NCBI GenBank assembly: GCA_944362695.1
Contig: CALVTQ010000105.1
Span: 1 to 33,012 of the forward strand
DNA from: an uncultured Clostridia bacterium
GTDB lineage: Bacteria > Bacillota > Clostridia > Christensenellales > Aristaeellaceae
Length of the DNA: 33,012 bases
Direction: 5' to 3'
Part shown: piece by piece, positions 14,983 through 26,888 of the stretch
How positions within the stretch are numbered: position 1 is the stretch's first letter
Layout: each line of letters opens with the position of its first letter
Made by a program: the position numbers and the translations under genes
The notes under the pieces: generated by a model
The model's database searches: none
What the model was told of the DNA's origin: nothing
What the model saw: the letters and a program-made list of their open reading frames with translations, nothing else

Positions 14983-16002
14983 TCATGCCTTCTTCGCCGG
15001 GCAGAGAATTTCCTGCCCAGGTTGCATATTTTTGACGCCCTCCAGCGCCTCGCCGATGTCCATGTCAAGCAGAATCGACCGCCCCGCAATGGCCTCTGGC
15101 GCGCAGGCCTCGCCCATGTTGACGCAGGCGTAGACCGCGTTTTCGTTGTCCCGCACCATCTGCCAGAATGGGAATTTGATGATGACCGGGGTGTTCCCGC
15201 CCACGCCCAGCTCGAGGTACAGCACGCGCTTGCCCTCGCATTTGTCGAGGAACTCCGCGTATGCCTCCGACGCCGCATGCCAGAGCGTGTCCTGCACAAA
15301 GCTGTCGTCGCCGCGCAGGTTCATGACCGGCTCGCTGCCGTCGGGCAAATGCGGGATCAGCGCATCCGGCAGGCGCATGCTCACCTTGCCGCCCACCGGC
15401 GGGGCAAACAGCCCGTCATCGCCCATGACATACCCCATCGCGCGCATGGCGTCCATGACCCATGCCTCGTTGTCATATGTCCTTCCGTCCGCCGGGTCGG
15501 CGTGCTGGAACAGGCCGTAATCGCCCTGCGTGCAGAACAGGCGGCGCTTGTCAAAGCCCGCGCGCTGGAACAGGTGGTCGACGTTCGTGGTGATGACGAA
15601 GTAATCCTTATCGCGCACGAGATCAAGCAGCGCCTCGTACACCGGCTTCGCCGCAGGCATGTATCGGTTGACGTAGATCATCCGCGCCCAGAACGCCCAC
15701 TTCGTCCCCGCGTCCGGAAAATCGTAAAACCCGCCGGAATACATATCTCGGAAGCCAAAGCGCGCGAAGAAATCGGAAAACCAGCGCATGAACCGCGCCC
15801 CGCCGTATGTGAACCCCGCCGACGTGCTCATCCCTGCGCCCGCGCCGATGACCACCGCGTCCGCAAAGTGAAGCGCCCGGCGAAGCTGCGCGATGCCCTC
15901 CTGCGCGTTGCCGTCGCTCCCGATCAGCCGCCCCACCGTGTGCACGGCGGCCAGCCCGCGCTGTATCGTCTCCTCGTAACCGTTCCTCATCTTATCCCCC
16001 AT
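14983..16002 (-). CDS. SirTM-like sirtuin (macrodomain-linked, putative protein mono-ADP-ribosyltransferase), zinc cluster lost
   Basis: The 339-residue protein has the Rossmann NAD site VVIGAGAGMSTSAGFTY (50-66) and the sirtuin motif TTNVDHLFQRAGF (138-150). The canonical catalytic histidine is replaced in TQGDYG by Q159. R230 lies in MNLRGDD. N140, Q159 and R230 match, from memory, the residues reported as important in streptococcal SirTM (N118, Q137, R192), with the same N-to-Q spacing of 19. The C-terminal half continues LELGVGGNTPVIIKFPFWQM. Relatives carry four zinc-binding cysteines; here those positions read QHADPAD and PHLPDG, so the zinc ribbon is gone. It overlaps the macrodomain gene by 11 bases. 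A start at 15990 is also possible. Likely role: NAD-dependent ADP-ribosylation of an unknown protein, reversed by the macrodomain. Confidence 0.85.
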   Translation of the reverse strand: MGDKMRNGYEETIQRGLAAVHTVGRLIGSDGNAQEGIAQLRRALHFADAVVIGAGAGMSTSAGFTYGGARFMRWFSDFFARFGFRDMYSGGFYDFPDAGTKWAFWARMIYVNRYMPAAKPVYEALLDLVRDKDYFVITTNVDHLFQRAGFDKRRLFCTQGDYGLFQHADPADGRTYDNEAWVMDAMRAMGYVMGDDGLFAPPVGGKVSMRLPDALIPHLPDGSEPVMNLRGDDSFVQDTLWHAASEAYAEFLDKCEGKRVLYLELGVGGNTPVIIKFPFWQMVRDNENAVYACVNMGEACAPEAIAGRSILLDMDIGEALEGVKNMQPGQEILCPAKKA

Positions 16003-16834
16003 ATATCGCCTCGTAGAGCGCCCTGTCCCTGTCCGAAAATACGTTGAAAATCACGCGCGCCAGCTTGCCCGGATGCGCGTCCAGCCAGCTTGTCACCGTG
16101 TCCGCCGCAATCTGCGCCGCCCTGTCCGCCGGGAAGCGGAACACGCCGGTCGATATGCAGCAGAACGCCACGCTCGCAAGCCCGTTCTGCGCGCACATGT
16201 CGAGCGTGTTTGCGTAGCAGTCCGCGAGCGCGCGCTCGTGCGACGCCGTGAGTTCGCCGTCCACGATCGGGCCGACGATGTGGATCACGTGCCTGGCGGG
16301 CAGGTTGTAGCCCGGCGTGAGCATCGGAACCGCCGTCGGCTGACGGTATCCGGGGCCGTGTTTGGCCCGCAGCGCGCGCATCTGCCTGTCGCACTCCGCG
16401 CGAAGCTGCACGCCCGCATAGGTGTGGATGCAGTTGTCGATGCAGCTGTGCAGCGGCACGAAGCATCCGAGCATGGCGTCGTTTGCCGCGTTGACGATGG
16501 CGTCCGCCGCCAGCCGCGTGATGTCGCCCTGCCAGATGGCGATTTGATCCGCGTGCGGCGCGCTGCTGTGCAGGCTCTCGCCGACCGTCGGGATGCCCGT
16601 GGCCTCCACGATGCCCTTCTCCCTCGCCCGCTCGCGAAGATACGCATCCTGCACGGCGAGGACGGCTTCGTCCACCGGCGCGGGCATGCGGATGTTCATC
16701 ATCGCCCGCAGCGCACGCCGCTTGCCCTCGGCCTCGCGCGGAATCGCAAAATCGACCGCGTCACCCGCGTCCTCCCAAAATGCCTGCACCAGCGCGTCAA
16801 GCCGCGCCGCCTGCGCATCGCTGCGTGTCATCAT
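15992..16834 (-). CDS. Zinc-type macrodomain protein-ADP-ribose hydrolase
   Basis: The 280-residue protein has a helical N-terminal region (1-90) and a macrodomain from about 95. The ADP-ribose site is WQGDITRLAADAIVNAANDAMLG (101-123). It is followed by the zinc macrodomain signature C-x4-H-x-C (C124, H129, C131) in MLGCFVPLHSCIDNCIH. HVIHIVGPIV and CCISTGVFRFP complete the fold. This class removes ADP-ribose from proteins modified by the sirtuin encoded next to it in staphylococci and streptococci. It is the first gene of the pair, with its own promoter, and overlaps the sirtuin by 11 bases. ATG codons at 16834 and 16831 compete; GGGAGG is 4 and 7 bases away respectively. The lipoylated carrier and lipoate ligase of the known operons are absent here. 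Confidence 0.92.
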   Translation of the reverse strand: MMTRSDAQAARLDALVQAFWEDAGDAVDFAIPREAEGKRRALRAMMNIRMPAPVDEAVLAVQDAYLRERAREKGIVEATGIPTVGESLHSSAPHADQIAIWQGDITRLAADAIVNAANDAMLGCFVPLHSCIDNCIHTYAGVQLRAECDRQMRALRAKHGPGYRQPTAVPMLTPGYNLPARHVIHIVGPIVDGELTASHERALADCYANTLDMCAQNGLASVAFCCISTGVFRFPADRAAQIAADTVTSWLDAHPGKLARVIFNVFSDRDRALYEAIYGG

Positions 16835-16862
16835 GCCGCCTCCCTGCCGTGTTCTGCATCCG

Positions 16863-16892
16863 ATTGTACCACAGCAGCGTTGTAATTGTAAA
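16863..16892 (-). promoter_or_regulatory. Promoter of the macrodomain-sirtuin operon
   Basis: TTTACA (16892-16887) and TACAAT (16868-16863) are 18 bases apart, reading leftward. The ATTACA motif inside the spacer recurs in the inverted repeat between the Rrf2 and sirtuin genes. Confidence 0.65.
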
Positions 16893-16914
16893 GCTAACAA
16901 CCCAAAATGCGCTC

Positions 16915-16949
16915 AAAAAGACGGGCGCACGACCCTCGCCGCACGCCCG
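16915..16949 (-). terminator. Terminator of the flavin reductase gene
   Basis: A 10-bp stem (CGGGCGTGCG with CGTGCGCCCG) followed by TCTTTTT on the minus strand, about 30 bases beyond the reductase stop at 16979. Confidence 0.85.
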
Positions 16950-16978
16950 CCGTATGTCAGGGAGGATTCCGCCTTTGG

Positions 16979-17521
16979 TCAAAACTTATCGGCCAGCGCC
17001 GCAGCCTTCGCGCAGCCGTCGGTGCCCGCGATCTCGCCAACCTTGAGCACGCCGGGCACGAGCACCTCGCCCACCTTGTTCCACTTGAGCAGCGCCGCCG
17101 AGCGTTCAATCGGGATGCGCACGCCGTCAAAGACGGAAAGGTCGTTTTCCTCGCAGCACGCAATCAGCGCGCACTTCTTGCCCGCGATGTCCTTGCCCGC
17201 CACGCAGAAGGAATAGATCCTGTCGATGACGCCCTTGATCTGCGCGGGGATGGAATACCAATAGACCGGCATGGTGAAGACGACCGCGTCGGCCTCCAGA
17301 ATCGCCGGGGCGATCTTGTTGAAATCGTCGTCAAACGTGCACGCCTTGCCCGTCTTAAAGCAGGTCTCACACGCGCGGCACCCGCCGATCTTCATCATCG
17401 CCGCGTCAAAGCGCGTCACATCGTGGCCCTTGGCCTTCGCCGCCTCGATGAACGCGTCGGTCATCGCAAAGCTGTTGCCCTTTTTGCGCGGGCTGCCGGT
17501 GATTACAACGATCTTGCTCAT
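16979..17521 (-). CDS. NAD(P)H-dependent FMN reductase / flavodoxin-fold oxidoreductase
   Basis: The 180-residue protein starts MSKIVVITGSPRKKGNSFAM, the FMN phosphate-binding loop of the NADPH-dependent FMN reductase family. It also has the cysteine-rich GGCRACETCFKTGKACTFDDDF (about 47-68) and FTMPVYWYSIPAQIKGVIDRIY, the flavin-contact helix of this group. It probably reduces quinones or iron-sulfur partners using bound FMN. AAAGGAG lies 7 bases before the ATG at 17521. It has its own promoter and terminator, so it is an independent unit between the two sirtuin blocks. A second paralogue lies at 20508. A redox link to the ADP-ribosylation genes is suggested only by position. Confidence 0.88.
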   Translation of the reverse strand: MSKIVVITGSPRKKGNSFAMTDAFIEAAKAKGHDVTRFDAAMMKIGGCRACETCFKTGKACTFDDDFNKIAPAILEADAVVFTMPVYWYSIPAQIKGVIDRIYSFCVAGKDIAGKKCALIACCEENDLSVFDGVRIPIERSAALLKWNKVGEVLVPGVLKVGEIAGTDGCAKAAALADKF

Positions 17522-17566
17522 GAAATTGCTCCTTTCGCCCGCCGCCACGGGCCGGTTGATGCCTCT

Positions 17567-17594
17567 ATGATAGCACGTGCAGCCCACAAGTCAA
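17567..17594 (-). promoter_or_regulatory. Promoter of the flavin reductase gene
   Basis: TTGACT (17594-17589), 16-base spacer and TATCAT (17572-17567), reading leftward; about 45 bases ahead of the start. Confidence 0.7.
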
Positions 17595-17639
17595 GTACGC
17601 ACATTTATGTTTGATACTATCTTGAAAGTAAGCATAAAC

Positions 17640-17667
17640 GACCCGGCAGTTTTTTCGCTGCCGGGCC
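17640..17667 (-). terminator. Terminator of the two-sirtuin operon
   Basis: GGCCCGGCAG and CTGCCGGGTC form a 10-bp stem with an 8-base A-rich loop, 23 bases past the sirtuin stop at 17690. The minus-strand tract is short (GTTTATG); on the plus strand CTTTTTC follows, so it could act both ways. Confidence 0.65.
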
Positions 17668-17689
17668 GCTTTTTCATGATCTATATGGT

Positions 17690-18529
17690 TTACGCGCGCG
17701 CCAATGCCTCGCGGATGGCCGCCAGCTTGTCGGCGAGCAGGCCGTCCAGCCCGAAGCTGCGCGCCGCAATCTCGTCGGGGATAAACACCTCGCCCTTGTT
17801 GATCGTGACATACGTGGCGTTCGGGTTCGCGGCAGTCAGGCGCATCAGCGGGGCCTTGATGAGCTGATTGCGCCAGCCGATGCCCATCTCGAGGATGACG
17901 AGCTTCCTGTTCATGTATTTGCGCACGAACGCGCCCTGCGCCGCGCGCGCGGCCTCGTCCACGATGAAGCTGCGGTCGGTCATCACATGCATCATCATCG
18001 GCCCGCCGCACTTGGGGCATCGCGGGATCAGCTCGCCCGGCACGAGCCCGCCTTCCTCCGCCTCGCGCATGCGGGCAATGGCCTCCGCCGCCGGGTAAAG
18101 CGCATCGTGGCACGCCGCCGCGCACTGCATGTGCTGCCAGCTGCCCTCGATCTCGTATATGCGCGCCGGGTCAAAGCCGCACAGCTCGAAGTGATACTCG
18201 CAGTTGCTGGTCACGATGAAGTAATCCTTCTCGCCCACGATGGCCTTGAGGTCGCGCATGGCGTCGCTGCCCTTGTAGTCAAGGCTGTAATGCCCGACGA
18301 GGCGGCTGGTGAAGGCCCACTGCTCGCGCTCGTCCGGCCAGCGCGCGCCCGCGCCGTGCAGGATGCAGCGGATGCCGTACTTGCGCTTGAAGTCGCCGAA
18401 CAGCCGCTCGAACGCCTCGTCGTCGGCGAAGAGGTTGAGCCCCTCGGTGATGGAAAGCCCGTTGCTCGCGCCGATCAGAATCGCGTCGGCCTCGCGTATT
18501 TTTGCTGCGATTGCGTCAAATTCGTTCAT
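17690..18529 (-). CDS. SIR2-family protein with altered active site
   Basis: The 279-residue protein is recognisable as a sirtuin homologue of the macrodomain-linked type. The NAD loop is ILIGASNGLSITEGLN (17-32). The usual TTNVDH reads TSNCEYH (107-113), and the catalytic position reads EIEGS with E128 instead of His or Gln. Four cysteines form an intact zinc ribbon (C136, C140, C171, C174). The arginine found in the first sirtuin's MNLRGDD is a methionine here (MHVMTDRSF). Asp-to-Glu, Gln-to-Glu and Arg-to-Met changes together suggest a changed reaction or a pseudoenzyme that binds NAD or ADP-ribose. It overlaps the upstream sirtuin gene by 14 bases, and AAGGAGGAG precedes the ATG. Function inferred from family only. 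Confidence 0.78.
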   Translation of the reverse strand: MNEFDAIAAKIREADAILIGASNGLSITEGLNLFADDEAFERLFGDFKRKYGIRCILHGAGARWPDEREQWAFTSRLVGHYSLDYKGSDAMRDLKAIVGEKDYFIVTSNCEYHFELCGFDPARIYEIEGSWQHMQCAAACHDALYPAAEAIARMREAEEGGLVPGELIPRCPKCGGPMMMHVMTDRSFIVDEAARAAQGAFVRKYMNRKLVILEMGIGWRNQLIKAPLMRLTAANPNATYVTINKGEVFIPDEIAARSFGLDGLLADKLAAIREALARA

Positions 18530-19460
18530 GATGCTCCTCCTTCATGCGCCTTGCCTCGGCGAGGATTTCGGCGATGCCGCCGCTGATGTACAGTCCCGGA
18601 TTGGCGAGCTTTCCCGGGCTGCGCGCTTCGCGTCTGTTGACGGTGATGTGATGGACGTTTTTGTTCTTCGCGGCCATCTGCCAGAACGGGAACTTGATGA
18701 CGCTCGGCGTCATATCGCCCACGCCCAGCTCGAGCAGCAGCACGCGCGCCCCGCCGAGCACGTGCCTGCGCAGGAACGCCTCATACCGCGCCCGCGCCGC
18801 ATGCCACTGCGCCTCTTCCAAAAACGCGTCGTCCCGCATCCACGGCGTCATGCGCCAGCCGCACTCGGGGCATCGCGGAATCAGCACGTCCGGCACGGCA
18901 AAATCCCGCGTCCCCGCGACCATCGCCCGCGCCGCCTGCACGGCGTCATAACGCGCGTCGTGGCAGGGCTGCGCGCATTGCAGATACGCAAAATCGCCCT
19001 GAAACGCGCAGATCTCGTCCTCGTCAAACGCCTTGGCGCACTGCATATCGACGTTCGTCGTCAGGATGAATGTCGGCTTGCCGCTAAGCAGCGCGCGCAG
19101 GTCGAGATACGGCGCACCGGCGGGCGCATCGGCCATCGCGCATATGTACGCCGCGGTATAGGCCCACTGCTCGCCGGGCGTCGAGAAGCAGTGATAAAAC
19201 CCGTCAAACGGCGACCCAAACCCATACCGCTCCCGAAACAGCGCGAGCGCGTCGGCCAGCGTACCCGACCAGTGGTAGTGGTCATACCCCGCCGCGCTGG
19301 ACATCCCGGAGCCGCAGCCCACGACGACGGCGTCCGCCAGCTCGATTTGCGTCAGCATGAGCGCAATCTGGCCGCGCATTTCTTCGGTCACCGTGCCGTG
19401 CACCTGCTCGCCCATATTTACGGCGTTGATTTGCGATATGATGCGCATCATCGTTGACAA
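18516..19460 (-). CDS. SirTM-like sirtuin with intact zinc ribbon
   Basis: The protein (up to 314 residues) has the NAD loop VVVGCGSGMSSAAGYD (45-60), TTNVDMQ (134-140), Q154 in FQGDF replacing the catalytic histidine, zinc cysteines C162, C166, C197 and C200, and R209 in WMRDDAF. It therefore keeps the Asn/Gln/Arg set of SirTM enzymes together with the zinc site that the 14983 copy has lost. The C-terminal half (LLLELGVGDMTPSVIKFPFWQM) is close to that copy. It heads a two-gene sirtuin operon divergent from an Rrf2 regulator. The start is uncertain: TTG at 19460 is only 3-4 bases from GGAGGG, while ATG at 19451 is 12-13 bases away. Probable NAD-dependent ADP-ribosyltransferase. Confidence 0.83.
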   Translation of the reverse strand: MSTMMRIISQINAVNMGEQVHGTVTEEMRGQIALMLTQIELADAVVVGCGSGMSSAAGYDHYHWSGTLADALALFRERYGFGSPFDGFYHCFSTPGEQWAYTAAYICAMADAPAGAPYLDLRALLSGKPTFILTTNVDMQCAKAFDEDEICAFQGDFAYLQCAQPCHDARYDAVQAARAMVAGTRDFAVPDVLIPRCPECGWRMTPWMRDDAFLEEAQWHAARARYEAFLRRHVLGGARVLLLELGVGDMTPSVIKFPFWQMAAKNKNVHHITVNRREARSPGKLANPGLYISGGIAEILAEARRMKEEHHERI

Positions 19461-21537: not shown

Positions 21538-22023
21538 TTATTTTGATTCGATGCGCACGATGCCCGGCTCGCCATCCTGCGGCGTCTCAAACATCGCGGC
21601 GAATTTGCGCATCAGCCCGTCGTCCACGGGATACGCGCTGACCTCGCCGCGCGCGATGGCCGCGTTGCGCAATTCGATGCGCCGCTGCCATTCATCATCC
21701 GCAATTTCAATATAGTGAATCGCACACGGCACGCCGCGTTCGCCGAAAAACGCCCGCGCCTCCTCGCGCTGTCGCCGCGTCCACAGCCCGATGTCGAGGA
21801 TCACATCGACGCCGCCGCGCACGATCTCAACTGCCTTGTCGTACAGATGCGCCCGCAGCCGCCCGACATACACGTCGTGCATCTCGCCCGCGTCCGTGCC
21901 GAACAGCGCGAGCATGATCTCGTCGACCGACAGGATCACCGCGTTCCCGCGCGATGCCAGCACCCTTGCATATGTGCTCTTGCCGCTGCACAGCTTGCCG
22001 CACATCAGGATCACATTCGCCAT
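21538..22023 (-). CDS. Small P-loop ATPase/kinase (AAA_33-like)
   Basis: The 161-residue protein has a Walker A motif GKLCSGKST (9-17), the acceptor-side motif ILSVDEIMLALFG (30-42), VDVILDIGLWTRRQREEARAFFGERG and a C-terminal IADDEWQRRIELRNAA, the pattern of AAA_33/zeta-like small-molecule or polynucleotide kinases. The start at 22023 is set by GGGAGG 8 bases upstream. It lies 92 bases after the HD-kinase gene, with a weak terminator and a new promoter in between that are duplicated from 24843-24933. It may be regulated like the repair operon without being co-transcribed. The substrate is unknown; an RNA 5'-end or a nucleotide is possible. Confidence 0.82.
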   Translation of the reverse strand: MANVILMCGKLCSGKSTYARVLASRGNAVILSVDEIMLALFGTDAGEMHDVYVGRLRAHLYDKAVEIVRGGVDVILDIGLWTRRQREEARAFFGERGVPCAIHYIEIADDEWQRRIELRNAAIARGEVSAYPVDDGLMRKFAAMFETPQDGEPGIVRIESK

Positions 22024-22040
22024 GCGCATCACCTCCCCGC

Positions 22041-22128
22041 TCATGATACAGCAAATCCGCTTGCCATGCAATACAAATGAGAGCCGCCCAAAGACATCCC
22101 TCTGTTTTGTTGACTTCACACGCAGATC
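22041..22128 (-). repeat. Duplicated terminator-promoter segment, copy A
   Basis: This 88-base segment is closely similar to 24843-24933. Read leftward it holds the last codons of the HD-kinase gene, a hairpin (AGAGGGATGTC with GGGCGGCTCTC) with a poor U-tract (ATTTG), then TTGCAT (22071-22066), 17 bases and TATCAT (22048-22043). The promoter serves the small kinase at 21538. The shared sequence starts inside coding DNA but in a different frame from copy B, so it has supplied the HD-kinase's stop codon. Confidence 0.75.
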
Positions 22129-23279
22129 CAATCCACTCGCCGCGCTTCCCAGCTGTGCGGCGGCTCCAATTTGCCCAGCATCCTGCCGATCGCGGCCTCC
22201 GGCACAGCGTCACGCCGGTTCGCGTTGCGCCGCAGATTTTCCGTCCATTCCGTCTCCAGATACACGATGCGCACCGACGCGCCGTAGCTTTCAAACAGCC
22301 CGATCAGGCTCGCGCGCGTGGCCTGCGTGAGGTTCGTCGCGTTCCATACGAACGGACGCTTCGCGCGCAGATATTCCCGCGCCCGCTCCTTGGCCGCCTG
22401 CGCCACGCGGCCCTGCTCGTCCGTCGGGTCAACGCCCATCTCCCCGCGCAGTTCGTCGAGGCTCACCACCGGCATGCCCGGCAGATTGCGGCCGATCCAC
22501 GTGTCCTTGCCCGTGCCCGGCAGCCCGCTCATGAGCACGACCTCGCCCCAAGTGTCGTCGTATACGCCGTACGCGGGCTGCACATTCCTGCCCTTGAAAT
22601 ACGCGCGGCGGGTGTGGCTGTCGGCAAATTCCGCCGCGCCGTGGCGGCATCCACATTCCTCGGCATACGCGCTGCACAGCTGCACATTCTCCATCAGCCT
22701 GTCCGTGTCCGCCGCGATGCGCCCGCGCACATCCGCCGCCGCCAGCGCACACAGCATCTCCACCGTCACGCCGCACATGCCGCCGTCCTGCGCGATCTGT
22801 ATCAGCAGCCTCTGCGAATCCTCGCGCTCCATGACGTGCACGGGCAGCATGTGCCGCCTCACCAGCAGACAAACGCCCTCGCGGAACGCCATCGCCCGCG
22901 GCGTGCCGCTCATGCCCAGCTCCGTCCAAAGCAGCTCGCGTGCCATGCGCGACCCGATTGCGCCGTGGTTGGGCGACGTCCAGCGCCCGTCCATCATCTT
23001 CGTCGTGGGGATCTTGCCGTTGTCGTGAAGCAGCGCCGACGCGGCCAGCAGATCGCGCGCGCCCTCGTCCATCGCCCTGTATGCCGGGTCATCCGCCAGC
23101 GCGCGGCAGACCATTCGCGTGTGCGCGCCCGCGTCGCCCTCGCCGTGAAAAGCCGGATGCTGCGGCGTGCCGTCCAGCTTCGCCAGCAGCGGCCCGACCG
23201 GCGAGCGCGCTATGGCGTCCCAGTCCCATGCATATTGGGGCAGCTTGGGCAAAAGCGCCCTCAGCGCGTCCATGCTCAT
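22116..23279 (-). CDS. HD-domain phosphohydrolase fused to a polynucleotide 5'-kinase-like domain
   Basis: The 387-residue protein joins two domains. Residues about 40-190 form an HD phosphohydrolase with metal ligands H53 (GDAGAHTRM), H85-D86 (ALLHDNGK), H105 (SPNHGAIG) and probably D183. Residues about 245-385 form a P-loop kinase with Walker A GLPGTGKDT (252-260), then SLDELRGEMG. There D275 and R278 match the D-x-x-R active site of T4 polynucleotide kinase. NATNLTQATR and YLETEWTENLRRNANR complete the kinase. The gene overlaps the RNA ligase gene by ATGA, with GGGAGG 5 bases upstream. Predicted role: preparing broken RNA ends, the kinase adding a 5'-phosphate and the HD domain perhaps removing 2',3'-cyclic or 3'-phosphates. 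Domain calls are firm; the substrate is inferred. Confidence 0.87.
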   Translation of the reverse strand: MSMDALRALLPKLPQYAWDWDAIARSPVGPLLAKLDGTPQHPAFHGEGDAGAHTRMVCRALADDPAYRAMDEGARDLLAASALLHDNGKIPTTKMMDGRWTSPNHGAIGSRMARELLWTELGMSGTPRAMAFREGVCLLVRRHMLPVHVMEREDSQRLLIQIAQDGGMCGVTVEMLCALAAADVRGRIAADTDRLMENVQLCSAYAEECGCRHGAAEFADSHTRRAYFKGRNVQPAYGVYDDTWGEVVLMSGLPGTGKDTWIGRNLPGMPVVSLDELRGEMGVDPTDEQGRVAQAAKERAREYLRAKRPFVWNATNLTQATRASLIGLFESYGASVRIVYLETEWTENLRRNANRRDAVPEAAIGRMLGKLEPPHSWEARRVDWICV

Positions 23280-24091
23280 GCGTCCCTCCCCGGCAGCTCC
23301 GGCGCAAACAGGTCCTCCGGCGCGCAGGCCAGAGCGTTGGGCACGATCGGCCTGTTCAGCCAATGCGTGTCCGTTTCCGCAATCGCCTGCACAAAGCCCA
23401 GCCGCACATATTTCACGCGCCCGGCAACCTCGCCGCCCTTCTCGATCTTGACGTAAAGCCCTTCCATGATGCCGCTTGCGTCCGTCTGGGAAATCACCAG
23501 CTCCGCGTCGAGCCCGGCGCGCTCCGCCGTCTCGCGCAGATTCTGCATATGCCGCGCCGTGATGTATTTCGACGGGCCGATCAGCCGCAGAAGCTCGTCC
23601 TTCTCGCGCATCTCGCCCTCAAAGAGCACCGGCACATGGCAGACGGGCAGCGGCGCCAGCAGCCCATGACGCGACGCCGTATCCAAAAAGCGCCCGCTCT
23701 CCCTGTCCAGCACGTCAAATTCCATGAAGTAATGCGGCAGCGCGTCGTAATACACCGTGTGCTTGGCGTACATCCACTCGCCGTACATGATATACCGGCT
23801 GCCCAGCACATCCTGCAGCGCCGCCCGGTGCGCGCCTGCCCATTGCTTGAGCAGGTCATAGTGCCGCTCGCGCCAGCCGCCGGTCAGATACCGTCCCCGG
23901 CTCTGCAGCAGCAGATTGCCCTCGCCGTCAAAGGAAACCGCGCTGTTCGCCCCGTCGATCTTTTCCTCCACGACGATGTGACGCCCCGCAATCTGCGAAA
24001 ACGGCACCTGCGTCAGGTCCTCGTCGCCGCTTTGCAGGCGCGAGCCCTCGATATGCGGCGTTCTCGGGTATTTGATGATCGAAAAATCCAT
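23276..24091 (-). CDS. ATP-dependent RNA ligase (nucleotidyltransferase superfamily)
   Basis: The 271-residue protein carries the ligase motifs in order: motif I VEEKIDGANSAV with the AMP-accepting K44, LQSRGRYL (62-69), GEWMYAKHTVYYDAL (104-118), motif IIIa YFMEFDVLD (121-129), motif IV EGLYVKIE (210-217) and motif V GRVKYVRLGF (224-233). This is the RNA_ligase (PF09414) pattern with no DNA-ligase OB or zinc modules. It should adenylate a 5'-phosphate and seal it to a 3'-OH. Its start lies 13 bases after the methyltransferase stop and its end overlaps the HD-kinase start by 4 bases. End-healing and sealing activities are thus translationally coupled. RNA rather than DNA as substrate is the family expectation. 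Confidence 0.9.
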   Translation of the reverse strand: MDFSIIKYPRTPHIEGSRLQSGDEDLTQVPFSQIAGRHIVVEEKIDGANSAVSFDGEGNLLLQSRGRYLTGGWRERHYDLLKQWAGAHRAALQDVLGSRYIMYGEWMYAKHTVYYDALPHYFMEFDVLDRESGRFLDTASRHGLLAPLPVCHVPVLFEGEMREKDELLRLIGPSKYITARHMQNLRETAERAGLDAELVISQTDASGIMEGLYVKIEKGGEVAGRVKYVRLGFVQAIAETDTHWLNRPIVPNALACAPEDLFAPELPGRDA

Positions 24092-24104
24092 GCCATACCT
24101 CGCT

Positions 24105-24803
24105 TTATGCGTCGTCTATCGTCGCCGCCATGAACAGATGCCCCGGCACGCCGTCAAACTGCAGGCGCGTGCATCCCGCGCTTTCAAACAGCGCCGTCAG
24201 CCTCTCGCGCGTGAGCAGATGGATGTGCTCCGGGTTGTCGTCGGGCTTGGACGGCACCGTGACCACCACGCATCGCCGCGCCAGCCGCACGGCCTCTCGC
24301 ACGGCAGTCTCCACGTCCGGGATATGCTCGAGCACCTCCAGCAGCGTCACGGCGTCAAATGCACGGTCCGGCAGGCCGCTGCGGCATATGTCCGCCTTCA
24401 TCGCCGTCAGATTCGTCACACCGCCGCGCGCGATATCGCCCAGAAACTCGACGCGATGCGCAAGGATGTCCGCGCTCATCACCCGGATATCCGGCAGTGC
24501 GCACAGCAGCAGGAACAGGAACGCGCCGCGCCCGCTGCCCACATCCAGCACGCTCTGCGGCCACACCGCGCGCAGATAGCCCAGCGCTTTTTTCACGCGC
24601 GGCAGCGCCTGCTTCTCCTTGAAATGATACAGGCTGAGCCCGGCCGCCCGGCCCGCGTCGTGCAGCGCCGCAAGCTCCGCCTCTGTCAGCGCATCAAGCG
24701 GCATCTGCATCCATCGCGGCGCAAGCTCCGGCACGCCGGTGCGCATCGCATGCCCGCGCACGTATGCCGCCTCCAGCATCGCAGGCGTCATCGTCCTCTC
24801 CAT
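24105..24803 (-). CDS. Class I SAM-dependent methyltransferase of the RNA-repair cassette (possibly Hen1-like)
   Basis: The 232-residue protein has motif I SVLDVGSGRGAFLFLLL (84-100), an acidic post-I segment SADILAHRVEF, and TLLEVLEHIPDVETAV (153-168) followed by VVTVPSKPDDNPEHIHLLTRERL (180-202). E156-x-x-E159-H160 with a downstream HIH resembles the metal site of Hen1 3'-terminal RNA 2'-O-methyltransferases. However, ExxEH also occurs in ordinary class I methyltransferases, so that link is a hypothesis. It is the first gene of the cassette, with AAAGGAGG 7 bases before the ATG and a clear promoter. Methylation of a repaired RNA end would fit its position beside a ligase and a kinase. Confidence 0.82.
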   Translation of the reverse strand: MERTMTPAMLEAAYVRGHAMRTGVPELAPRWMQMPLDALTEAELAALHDAGRAAGLSLYHFKEKQALPRVKKALGYLRAVWPQSVLDVGSGRGAFLFLLLCALPDIRVMSADILAHRVEFLGDIARGGVTNLTAMKADICRSGLPDRAFDAVTLLEVLEHIPDVETAVREAVRLARRCVVVTVPSKPDDNPEHIHLLTRERLTALFESAGCTRLQFDGVPGHLFMAATIDDA

Positions 24804-24842: not shown

Positions 24843-24933
24843 TCATGATACAGCATCCGCGCGCGCTTTGCAATATGCAAAAAGAGAGCCGCCCGAAGAC
24901 AGCCCTCTGTATGGTTTACTTCACCCGCAGATC
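24843..24933 (-). repeat. Duplicated terminator-promoter segment, copy B
   Basis: Read leftward, it holds the last codons of the sigma-partner gene, a strong terminator (11-bp stem AGAGGGCTGTC with GGCGGCTCTCT closing a UUCG-type loop, followed by TTTTT), then TTGCAA (24873-24868), 17 bases and TATCAT (24850-24845). This promoter drives the methyltransferase-ligase-HD-kinase operon. Copy A at 22041-22128 is its diverged duplicate. Confidence 0.8.
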
Positions 24934-26310
24934 GACGATGCCGCATTCGCGCGCCGCATCGTCAAACGCATAGCTCGCGCCGCCGGTCACATTGAGGAAC
25001 ATGTGCGCGAGGTCGCTTTCGTTCACGATCCACGCCATGTTCACCGTCGCGCTCTCGCCAGGCGCAAGGCGCGCGATGTAGTTGCCGCCGTTGCCGGTGT
25101 CCGGGCGCGGGCTCCAATAGCCCATATCGCCCATCGCAGCCGCGCTGTCGCCGGAAATTCTGTCGATGCCGTTGCCCGCAAGCTCCGCGTCCGTCACGAC
25201 GGTGAGCCTGCCGCCGTCCTCGGCGATGCGCATCAGCGCGCCGTTGTACAGCACGTCCTCGAGTGCCGCGTCCGTCCCGTTGGTGTAGGTCAGCGTGACA
25301 TAAACCAGCTTCTGCGCGCTCTGCTCCGTGCGGATGACCGTATCCAGCGTGTTCACGCCGTCGCCGGTTTTGATGTACGACAGCGTGTTTGCGACGAGCT
25401 TCCCGTCCGCGCCCATGGTGCCTTGCCAATCCTCCGGCACGCCGTCGCTAAGCAAACTCAAATCATCCGCAATCTGCACGCTGTCCACGCGCACATTCAC
25501 GACCGCATCCTCCGCATTGCTGCAATGCGCCGGAACGCCGAACGCCTCGCCCACGCCGTGCAGCGCGATATCGCCCGCCGCGATGCTCACGGGCCGCTCG
25601 TCCGCGATGGCCTCCGCGTACTCAAAGCCCCACGGCAGCAGATCCGCCGTGTCGATCATGACGTCCGTCTGCTCAATCATCATGTTCTCGGCGATCCTGA
25701 TCGCGTCTTCCTTGCTCACGTCGTCGCCGATGAACAGCGTGACCACCCAGCCATATTCCGGGCAGAGCGTGACGATCCGCTGGTTGAACGTACCGTCCTG
25801 CCGCAGGTCGTCAAAGCGCAGATAGACGCCCTCGCGCCCGGCGAACGTGCGCTGCTCGCTCTCCACGACGTTTTTGTCCGTCACGCTCAGCGCGTCTTCG
25901 CCGCCGCCCGCGAGCAGCATGCGGCTGATCGACACGCCGCCGTGATGCGGGGTATCCGGGCTGGCGATGCGCTTGTCCTCCGCGCGCCAGACCATGCCCT
26001 CCGGCACGTAGCCGGGCGTAAACGCGATGTCCGCGACCTTCTCCGGCACGGCGGTCTCGCCCTGCGAGGCGACTTTGATCTCGACGCTGTATGCGCCGCG
26101 CTGCTCGAGCGTCATGTGATACGCGACGGCAGCCACCGCGACCGCCGACACGCAAACCACACATAGCGCCGCCAGCACCATGGCCCGCGCGGGCGTCCAC
26201 GACCTTTTCCTCTCACCCGCAGACAACTGCCTGTTTACCTCCATGCGCACGCGCTCGCCAACCATCTCCGGCAAATCCGGCGCGGCGTTCCTCGCATCCC
26301 TGATCTTCAT
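24916..26310 (-). CDS. Membrane-anchored anti-sigma-like protein with large extracytoplasmic region
   Basis: The 464-residue protein has a short cytoplasmic N-terminus (about 1-40, basic before the membrane), one transmembrane segment (about 41-63, ARAMVLAALCVVCVSAVAVAAVA), and about 400 external residues. The external part begins with a segment containing IAFTPGYVPEGMVWR, reminiscent of DUF4367/DUF4179-type sigma partners, followed by a beta-rich C-terminal part. It overlaps the upstream sigma factor gene by ATGA and has AAAGGAG 8 bases before the ATG. By position and topology it is the regulator of that sigma factor, holding it at the membrane until an external signal. No catalytic motif is visible, and the signal is unknown. 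Confidence 0.8.
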   Translation of the reverse strand: MKIRDARNAAPDLPEMVGERVRMEVNRQLSAGERKRSWTPARAMVLAALCVVCVSAVAVAAVAYHMTLEQRGAYSVEIKVASQGETAVPEKVADIAFTPGYVPEGMVWRAEDKRIASPDTPHHGGVSISRMLLAGGGEDALSVTDKNVVESEQRTFAGREGVYLRFDDLRQDGTFNQRIVTLCPEYGWVVTLFIGDDVSKEDAIRIAENMMIEQTDVMIDTADLLPWGFEYAEAIADERPVSIAAGDIALHGVGEAFGVPAHCSNAEDAVVNVRVDSVQIADDLSLLSDGVPEDWQGTMGADGKLVANTLSYIKTGDGVNTLDTVIRTEQSAQKLVYVTLTYTNGTDAALEDVLYNGALMRIAEDGGRLTVVTDAELAGNGIDRISGDSAAAMGDMGYWSPRPDTGNGGNYIARLAPGESATVNMAWIVNESDLAHMFLNVTGGASYAFDDAARECGIVDLRVK

Positions 26311-26795
26311 TCCGAAATCTCCTTTCCGAGCATGTCGCGCAGCTTCTCCCGCGCGCGGGCCAGCCGTTTCGCGGCCGCGCCCTCCGTGATGTGCAATGTT
26401 TTGGCGACCTCGCGCACGCTGAAATCCTGCAAATAATACAGCGTCACCGGCAGGCGCAGCGCCTCGGGGAGCGCGCCGATCGCCCGATAGAGCGCGGCAT
26501 AATCCTGCGGCCCGTCTGTCTGCGCGATCTCCTCCGCCCGCTCGCCCATCGCCTCCAGCGACACCGTGCGCCCGCGTTTGCGGATGATCGTGTAACATTC
26601 GTTGATCAGAATCCGCGTGAGCCACGTTTTGGCGTGCGCGTCGTTTCGCAGCGTCCACAATTTGCCGAACGCTTTTGCGACCGTCTCCTGCATGGCGTCG
26701 GCGATGTCCGCGTCGCTTTTGAGGATGGCGCGCGCCGTCACGTAGAGCTGGCGCTGGCTCTGCAGGATCAGCGCCCCCAATTCATCTTTTGTCAC
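26307..26795 (-). CDS. ECF-type RNA polymerase sigma factor (sigma-70 family)
   Basis: The protein of about 162 residues has sigma region 2 (ADIADAMQETVAKAFGKLWTLR, KTWLTRILINECYTIIRKRGR) and region 4 (LPEALRLPVTLYYLQDFSVREVAKTLHITEGAAAKRLARAREKLRDML), the compact ECF layout. It recruits RNA polymerase to a stress or envelope regulon. I prefer the GTG at 26795, which has AAAGGCGG 7 bases upstream. An in-frame ATG at 26819 (170 residues) lacks a ribosome site. TATAAT at 26878-26873 lies upstream, but no good -35 box accompanies it. The gene is coupled to its membrane partner by an ATGA overlap. Confidence 0.92.
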   Translation of the reverse strand: MTKDELGALILQSQRQLYVTARAILKSDADIADAMQETVAKAFGKLWTLRNDAHAKTWLTRILINECYTIIRKRGRTVSLEAMGERAEEIAQTDGPQDYAALYRAIGALPEALRLPVTLYYLQDFSVREVAKTLHITEGAAAKRLARAREKLRDMLGKEISE

Positions 26796-26888
26796 ATCCT
26801 CACCGCCTTTCTCGCCCATTAGACGCGCGCGATGCCAAAATATCCCGGAGATTTCGAAAATTTCTCATTTATATTATATCACACGGCG

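Follow-up and report, generated by a model that had tools for sequence, protein, structure and literature searches.

The window analysed here is a 33,012-nt stretch from an uncultured Clostridia bacterium (CALVTQ010000105.1), contig 105 of a draft genome of 174 contigs. A first-pass annotation, made from the sequence alone, described four consecutive minus-strand genes in it as an RNA-repair cassette: a class I methyltransferase (MT), an RNA ligase (LIG), a protein fusing an HD phosphohydrolase to a polynucleotide kinase (HD-Pnk), and a small P-loop kinase. Open reading frames and Pfam matches bear out all four genes in this order (Table 1), the methyltransferase by PF08241 (46 bits) and the small kinase by PF13671. 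The reported spacing is likewise correct: 13 nt separate the end of MT from LIG, and LIG and HD-Pnk overlap by 4 nt. The small kinase lies 92 nt beyond HD-Pnk, behind a terminator-like hairpin.

Table 1. Features of the cassette region, in window coordinates
Feature	Position	Strand	Evidence
MT, class I S-adenosylmethionine (SAM)-dependent methyltransferase, 232 aa	24105..24803	-	Pfam Methyltransf_11/25/23
LIG, RNA-ligase-family (PF09414) enzyme, 271 aa	23276..24091	-	PF09414, E 4.7e-33
HD-Pnk, N-terminal HD phosphohydrolase and C-terminal polynucleotide-kinase domain, 387 aa	22116..23279	-	PF01966 + PF13671
Small AAA_33 kinase, 161 aa, neighbour judged outside the cassette	21538..22023	-	PF13671
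Terminator-like hairpin between DUF4367-like gene and cassette	24883..24908	-	Fold -17.5 kcal/mol, z -4.2
Promoter-like site TTGCAA-17-TATCAT ahead of MT	24845..24873	-	Consensus scan only
Upstream copy of imperfect direct repeat bracketing the cassette	24843..24933	.	
Downstream copy of the repeat, which runs over the HD-Pnk stop codon and lies ahead of the small kinase	22041..22128	.	

We read the gene context of HD-Pnk in 30 genomes: 26 from the family (the window's own included), two from the order, and two from the class. In 21 of the 30, the window's genome included, MT, LIG, and HD-Pnk follow one another without a break on the same strand, with the loci of G1004 and G1113 cut by a contig end. 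In G1041 and G1021, MT and LIG lie together on a contig other than that of HD-Pnk, which is intact in both. LIG and HD-Pnk are seen without MT in four genomes (G1112, G1053, G228, and G168; in G228 the contig ends ahead of a possible MT, and for G168 only the locus was read), and HD-Pnk stands alone in three (G987, G1055, and G1115). The gap between MT and LIG, measured to the nearest start codon, is no more than 20 nt in 20 of the 22 loci measured.

Presence of the genes is correlated as well. Among 200 genomes sampled from the family, 26 have HD-Pnk, 22 have MT, and 21 have both (P = 1e-22, Fisher's test, uncorrected for relatedness). HD-Pnk occurs without MT in G987, G1053, G1055, G1112, and G1115, and MT without HD-Pnk in G1068, where the MT match is partial (residues 94-231). 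LIG is present in 23 of the 26 HD-Pnk-bearing family genomes and in none of the 21 HD-Pnk-free ones tested (out of 174; G1068 included). In a sample of 297 genomes of the order, six have HD-Pnk at E up to 1e-15, and the same six, four of them also in the family set, have MT at E up to 1e-20. The count of co-occurrence across genomes that the first-pass annotation had proposed as a check shows a conserved neighbourhood for three of the four genes. Pairwise distances over 21 genomes are correlated between MT and LIG (r = 0.78), MT and HD-Pnk (r = 0.72), and LIG and HD-Pnk (r = 0.63); none of 2000 permutations gave values as high, although kinship is not removed by this Mantel test. Among the best 120 protein database matches for HD-Pnk and the best 120 for MT, at least nine contigs are apparently common to both lists (matched on size, by eye), an overlap that fits shared contigs.

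The cassette is patchily distributed, since HD-Pnk occurs in only one of the 11 members of its own genus listed in the family sample. Farther out, HD-Pnk is found in three of 291 genomes of the class sample (one through its kinase part) and in one of 398 of the phylum sample, the window's own genome; a scan of named genomes gave two full-length relatives among the 32 loci listed. In a tree of 39 HD-Pnk sequences, the presence of MT requires eight changes, all within one 30-row clade (100/99), rows at contig edges and from phages being scored as lacking MT.

Two of the lone HD-Pnk genes are decayed: that of G1055 (locus L082) has lost the HD motif and D-x-x-R, and that of G1115 (L083) the Walker A lysine and D-x-x-R. 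Several neighbours of the G1115 gene also flank complete cassettes in two other members of its genus. The third, in G987, looks intact, and adjoining it is an open frame (L081:6101-6730), read by eye, that resembles a decayed ligase whose motif I lysine is gone. The HD-Pnk match of G168, a genome in a single contig, falls into two overlapping pieces (L049:6095-6925), HD and kinase, with the middle of the query unmatched. On balance, the pattern of loss is as expected for three proteins that work together.

The first-pass annotation counted four genes in the cassette. Three of them hold together in relatives, as shown above; tblastn gave no match to the small kinase in the relatives' loci, as far as these reach (some end soon after HD-Pnk), and the four-gene version is therefore rejected in favour of MT, LIG, and HD-Pnk. 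The small kinase has relatives in eight of 28 other genomes of the genus, and a search of the stretches read around these eight for nine other genes of the neighbourhood, the cassette genes included, found none.

The ligase and HD-Pnk keep their catalytic motifs. LIG matches PF09414 with 115 bits and its nucleotidyltransferase motifs are conserved; the lysines of motif I (K44) and motif V (K227), between which the first-pass annotation had placed these motifs, are invariant in 15 aligned relatives. We expect LIG to be ATP-dependent; the best PDB matches to its profile carry the label ATP-dependent DNA ligase. In HD-Pnk, the metal-binding residues of the HD part (H53, H85-D86, H105, H143, and D183) are all intact, and in the kinase part the Walker A motif GLPGTGKDTW (residues 252-261) is followed by an intact D275-x-x-R278, as had been described. 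Fold matches link the HD part to the HD region of a tRNA-processing enzyme and the kinase part to the kinase of bacterial Pnkp (4gp7, 4xrp). The profile searches suggested earlier gave matches to PF09414 and PF13671 (AAA_33), but not membership of the bacterial Pnkp family TIGR04075, a single chain of kinase, metallophosphoesterase, and ligase domains, against which HD-Pnk scores 25.9 bits over the kinase part only (cut-off, 750). The locus has the features of the Deinococcus radiodurans pair DRB0098 and DRB0100, namely, an HD-kinase fusion, intact catalytic residues, and an adjacent ligase with nucleotidyltransferase motifs. To the gene content, order, co-occurrence, catalytic motifs, and fold matches observed here, these and other relatives add predicted activities of healing and sealing, HD-Pnk being a putative 5′-OH kinase and 3′-phosphoesterase.

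HD-Pnk also occurs in viruses. We found it on two large viral contigs, L040 (179 kb) and L042 (148 kb), of which the first alone has the ligase close to it. A 462-kb record from an uncultured phage (LR756500.1, hit H26) also encodes HD-Pnk. MT has no match in the phage records searched. Jumbo phages have been described as encoding RNA ligases and kinases, a few of them also phosphatases of HD-like type (PMC7824862).

The third protein, MT, has a generic class I fold according to fold searches and matches the generic Methyltransf_11/23 families. Several searches and an AlphaFold model (mean pLDDT 93.8) used the sequence P0121, identical to the window's MT but for a single residue (98, L to P). 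The best named NCBIfam for MT is MftM, a mycofactocin oligosaccharide methyltransferase, with 89 bits (below the cut-off of 200), and all 21 aligned members match it; other families matched below cut-off are UbiG (21 members), BioC (21), and Hen1 (16). Against bacterial Hen1 (TIGR04074), MT scores 22 bits (cut-off, 340), and we reject it as a Hen1 member. At 232 aa it is without the large N-terminal part of Hen1; the Hen1 of G057, a 527-aa frame, has its methyltransferase part at the C terminus. This genome has the only Hen1 match above cut-off among the 44 genomes, out of 99 in a class sample, in which the model found a match, MT being among the weak ones. Twelve PDB entries match the MT profile at E up to 0.001. 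UbiG leads them, and 3jwj and 3jwh are Hen1 by label; with 3jwi and 3jwg, which we take to be Hen1 as well, four Hen1 methyltransferase domains are among the 12. Hen1 is absent from the best 50 rows of the MT fold searches, which excludes nothing. In a search of the four proteins against PADLOC-DB 2.0.0, the only match was of MT to mads_2 (35 bits, residues 82-236 only), and the component set of no known anti-phage system was matched by the cassette.

In MT, E156-x-x-E159-H160 and H193/H195 are invariant in all 22 locus sequences. The metal ligands of human HENMT1 are E132, E135, H136, and H181, as given in PMC10781085, and the G057 Hen1 has E-V-V-E-H and, further on, RHGDHRFEWTR. H193/H195 were matched to the fourth ligand by eye only, because the hhalign alignment to true Hen1 stops before them. 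E-x-x-E-H is present in Hen1 and UbiG. Eighteen background methyltransferase loci match the Hen1 model, and the motif is missing from all 13 that were readable; it is therefore common to Hen1 and UbiG and not general, as far as so small a sample goes. The single MftM compared reads HLLEH at this place, the first Glu missing. The motif would suit a metal-dependent O-methyltransferase whose substrate is a diol, for instance the 3′-terminal ribose, and MT resembles hydroxyl methyltransferases, several of which have sugar substrates.

Taken together, the data point to a three-gene cassette for healing, methylating, and sealing RNA cut by an endonuclease, with MT acting on the 2′-OH at the break, a reading that we consider evenly poised. 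The HD domain would remove a 2′,3′-cyclic or 3′ phosphate, and the kinase domain would phosphorylate the 5′-OH. MT is predicted to methylate the 2′-OH at the break ahead of sealing, which LIG would carry out, and the mended, methylated RNA would resist a second cut. The least certain part is that MT acts on an RNA end at all, and on the 2′-OH especially: MT is outside the Hen1 family, and its 2′-O activity is therefore put forward as hypothetical. It is possible that MT also licenses the stand-alone ligase, as the N-terminal domain of Hen1 activates the Pnkp ligase (PMC4411300); we propose this role because DRB0100 alone sealed neither DNA nor RNA in vitro (PMC1997131).

Several observations weigh against this reading. 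MT falls far short of Hen1, its top score is to a sugar methyltransferase of the mycofactocin pathway, and UbiG, not an RNA enzyme, is a better match to its profile than Hen1 and has E-x-x-E-H too; the alignment to true Hen1 ends ahead of the histidines. MT appears dispensable in G1112 and G1053, which have no MT match anywhere in the genome and keep ligase and HD-Pnk, and the ligase/HD-Pnk pairs of plasmids and of Deinococcus stand without it. G987, with no MT, no intact ligase, and an intact-looking HD-Pnk beside an apparent ligase remnant, is at odds with strict co-loss unless the decay is recent. The families shared beside the cassette look like housekeeping genes by eye, and the link to toxin attack is without genomic support here because the relatives' neighbours were unscanned for toxin and defence genes. 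The association of the Deinococcus operon with irradiation and DNA repair must be added to these.

DNA repair is a serious rival, if an unlikely one in our estimate: HD-Pnk and the ligase would act on DNA strand breaks, and MT would modify DNA ends, a protein, or a small molecule. According to PMC1997131, the DRB0098-DRB0100 operon is induced by irradiation and was proposed for the repair of RNA and/or DNA, and DRB0098 phosphorylates 5′-OH DNA ends; a 2018 title in the reference list of PMC9146567 concerns Deinococcus HD-Pnk and resistance to radiation and mitomycin C. The PDB labels of the LIG matches point the same way. However, LIG is in the RNA_ligase family PF09414, the failure of DRB0100 to seal extends to DNA, which it did not seal with the other two operon proteins either (PMC1997131), the HD part resembles that of a tRNA-processing enzyme, and MT resembles methyltransferases of hydroxyl groups, several of them active on sugars. 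The end-healing and sealing unit implied by the first-pass annotation stands, and its choice of RNA over DNA as the substrate is not settled.

Somewhat less probable still is that HD-Pnk and the ligase repair RNA and MT modifies some other place in it, such as an anticodon base of a tRNA, to protect the RNA or mark its quality, in place of a Hen1-like 2′-O step at the break. The low Hen1 score, the missing N-terminal part, and the generic fold would all suit such an enzyme, but the invariant E-x-x-E-H with its two downstream histidines, the absence of E-x-x-E-H from the 13 background enzymes, and the lack of the first Glu in the one MftM checked argue against it. That MT is a passenger fixed by common descent, with no role in repair, is very improbable: Two of the 23 ligase-bearing family genomes do lack MT, and shared ancestry is retained in both the Fisher and the Mantel tests, but MT keeps its place beside the ligase in the genomes that have HD-Pnk on a different contig, both genomes with a decayed HD-Pnk also lack MT and ligase, and few flanking genes are common outside close relatives. 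The largest shared cluster beside the cassette, a protein-kinase-like gene, is found in six genomes; nine further printed clusters, of common genes by eye, span three to four genomes each, several of them within one genus.

In the window, an imperfect direct repeat of ~90 bp, holding a gene 3′ end, a hairpin, and a TATCAT site, flanks the cassette on both sides. The upstream copy contains the last codons of a DUF4367-like gene, in a frame that differs from that of the copy at the end of HD-Pnk. Allowing up to three mismatches, the genome has two occurrences of the hairpin pattern, both of them here at the cassette, and none would be expected by chance in the window. The repeat is found only at the window's locus (score 93, against 16-26 at the 18 others among the 19 loci compared; control across loci, mean 19.8 and maximum 34), and a general mobile cassette with flanking repeats is rejected on this count. 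Its appearance suggests a scar, left in the window's genome when sequence was duplicated or acquired at the 3′ end of HD-Pnk. Terminator-like hairpins (three found, 2.4 expected) and promoter-like sites (one found by consensus scan, 0.9 expected) are about as frequent in the region as by chance.

Directly upstream of the cassette (24916-26819) are a sigma-70-family (ECF-like) factor and then the DUF4367-like protein (below the Pfam cut-off), whose gene is present, among 29 genomes of the genus, only in that of the window. Elsewhere in the window, 14983-19460 is possibly a SirTM-like ADP-ribosylation array, with a macrodomain protein (15992-16900; NCBIfam protein-ADP-ribose hydrolase, above cut-off) beside genes whose resemblance to Sir2 is weak or visual only (14983-16002, 17690-18529, and 18516-19460). 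Rfam gave nothing above threshold in the window, and tRNAs were found neither in the window nor in three viral loci.

Among known systems, the D. radiodurans operon DRB0100-DRB0099-DRB0098 is similar in order and tight packing, and its ligase and HD-Pnk are each 29% identical to those of the cassette (HD-Pnk over 420 alignment columns). DRB0100 is shorter than LIG (210 versus 271 aa), and the third gene, between ligase and HD-Pnk, is a PARG macrodomain (TIGR02452), whereas the cassette has a methyltransferase. In Runella, the HD and kinase domains are reportedly also fused, and the ligase is a protein of its own. Plasmids of Pseudomonas, Variovorax, Sphaerospermopsis, Bosea, Methylorubrum, and Deinococcus carry the ligase upstream of HD-Pnk in all nine loci read (out of 42 records with HD-Pnk), and there is no MT within these nine; only two plasmid records match MT, as MftM or generic methyltransferase. 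Two of the pairs (L121 and L126), on Pseudomonas aeruginosa plasmids, have transposase genes of IS21 or IS3 type and a gene for an SOS-response-associated peptidase as neighbours. Plasmids of Rhizobium and Miltoncostaea have a long distance between their ligase and HD-Pnk genes.

Pnkp/Hen1-type systems combine kinase, phosphoesterase, ligase, and methyltransferase, as the cassette does, and the kinase fold is common to both. Their phosphatase is a metallophosphoesterase or HAD enzyme, not an HD domain. In the Pnkp/Hen1 and Pnkp1-Rnl-Hen1 systems, as described in PMC4411300, methylated repair resists repeat cleavage and Hen1, through an N-terminal domain, activates the ligase; the cassette's MT fails the Hen1 cut-off. 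The first-pass annotation's comparison with these systems survives as a working analogy, with an end-healing and sealing unit in a conserved neighbourhood and a different methyltransferase, whose 2′-O activity is hypothetical. Since MT is not a Hen1 member, it would be an independent route to the same logic of repair plus immunisation. We suggest, tentatively and with some doubt, a second, independently assembled system of this kind, in which HD-Pnk would heal the RNA ends, the stand-alone ligase would seal them, and a non-Hen1 methyltransferase would 2′-O-methylate the break, perhaps also activating the ligase; the same ribotoxin could then not cut the repaired RNA a second time.

The HD-kinase fusion with a separate ligase, emphasised in the first-pass annotation, is indeed present, but it had already been described for DRB0098/DRB0100 (PMC1997131). 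Also known are the pairing of HD-Pnk with this ligase and an operon that has a further gene besides these two, PARG in the case of Deinococcus. A limited literature search found no paper coupling HD-Pnk with a methyltransferase, which does not show absence from print; as far as we have seen, what is new is a conserved methyltransferase partner of the ligase/HD-Pnk pair. If MT methylates the break, RNA repair with immunity has evolved at least twice in bacteria, from different methyltransferases, and the methyl step would be the selected trait. The cassette also lets one ask why a DRB0100-type ligase is inactive alone, since a conserved partner is here encoded beside the ligase.

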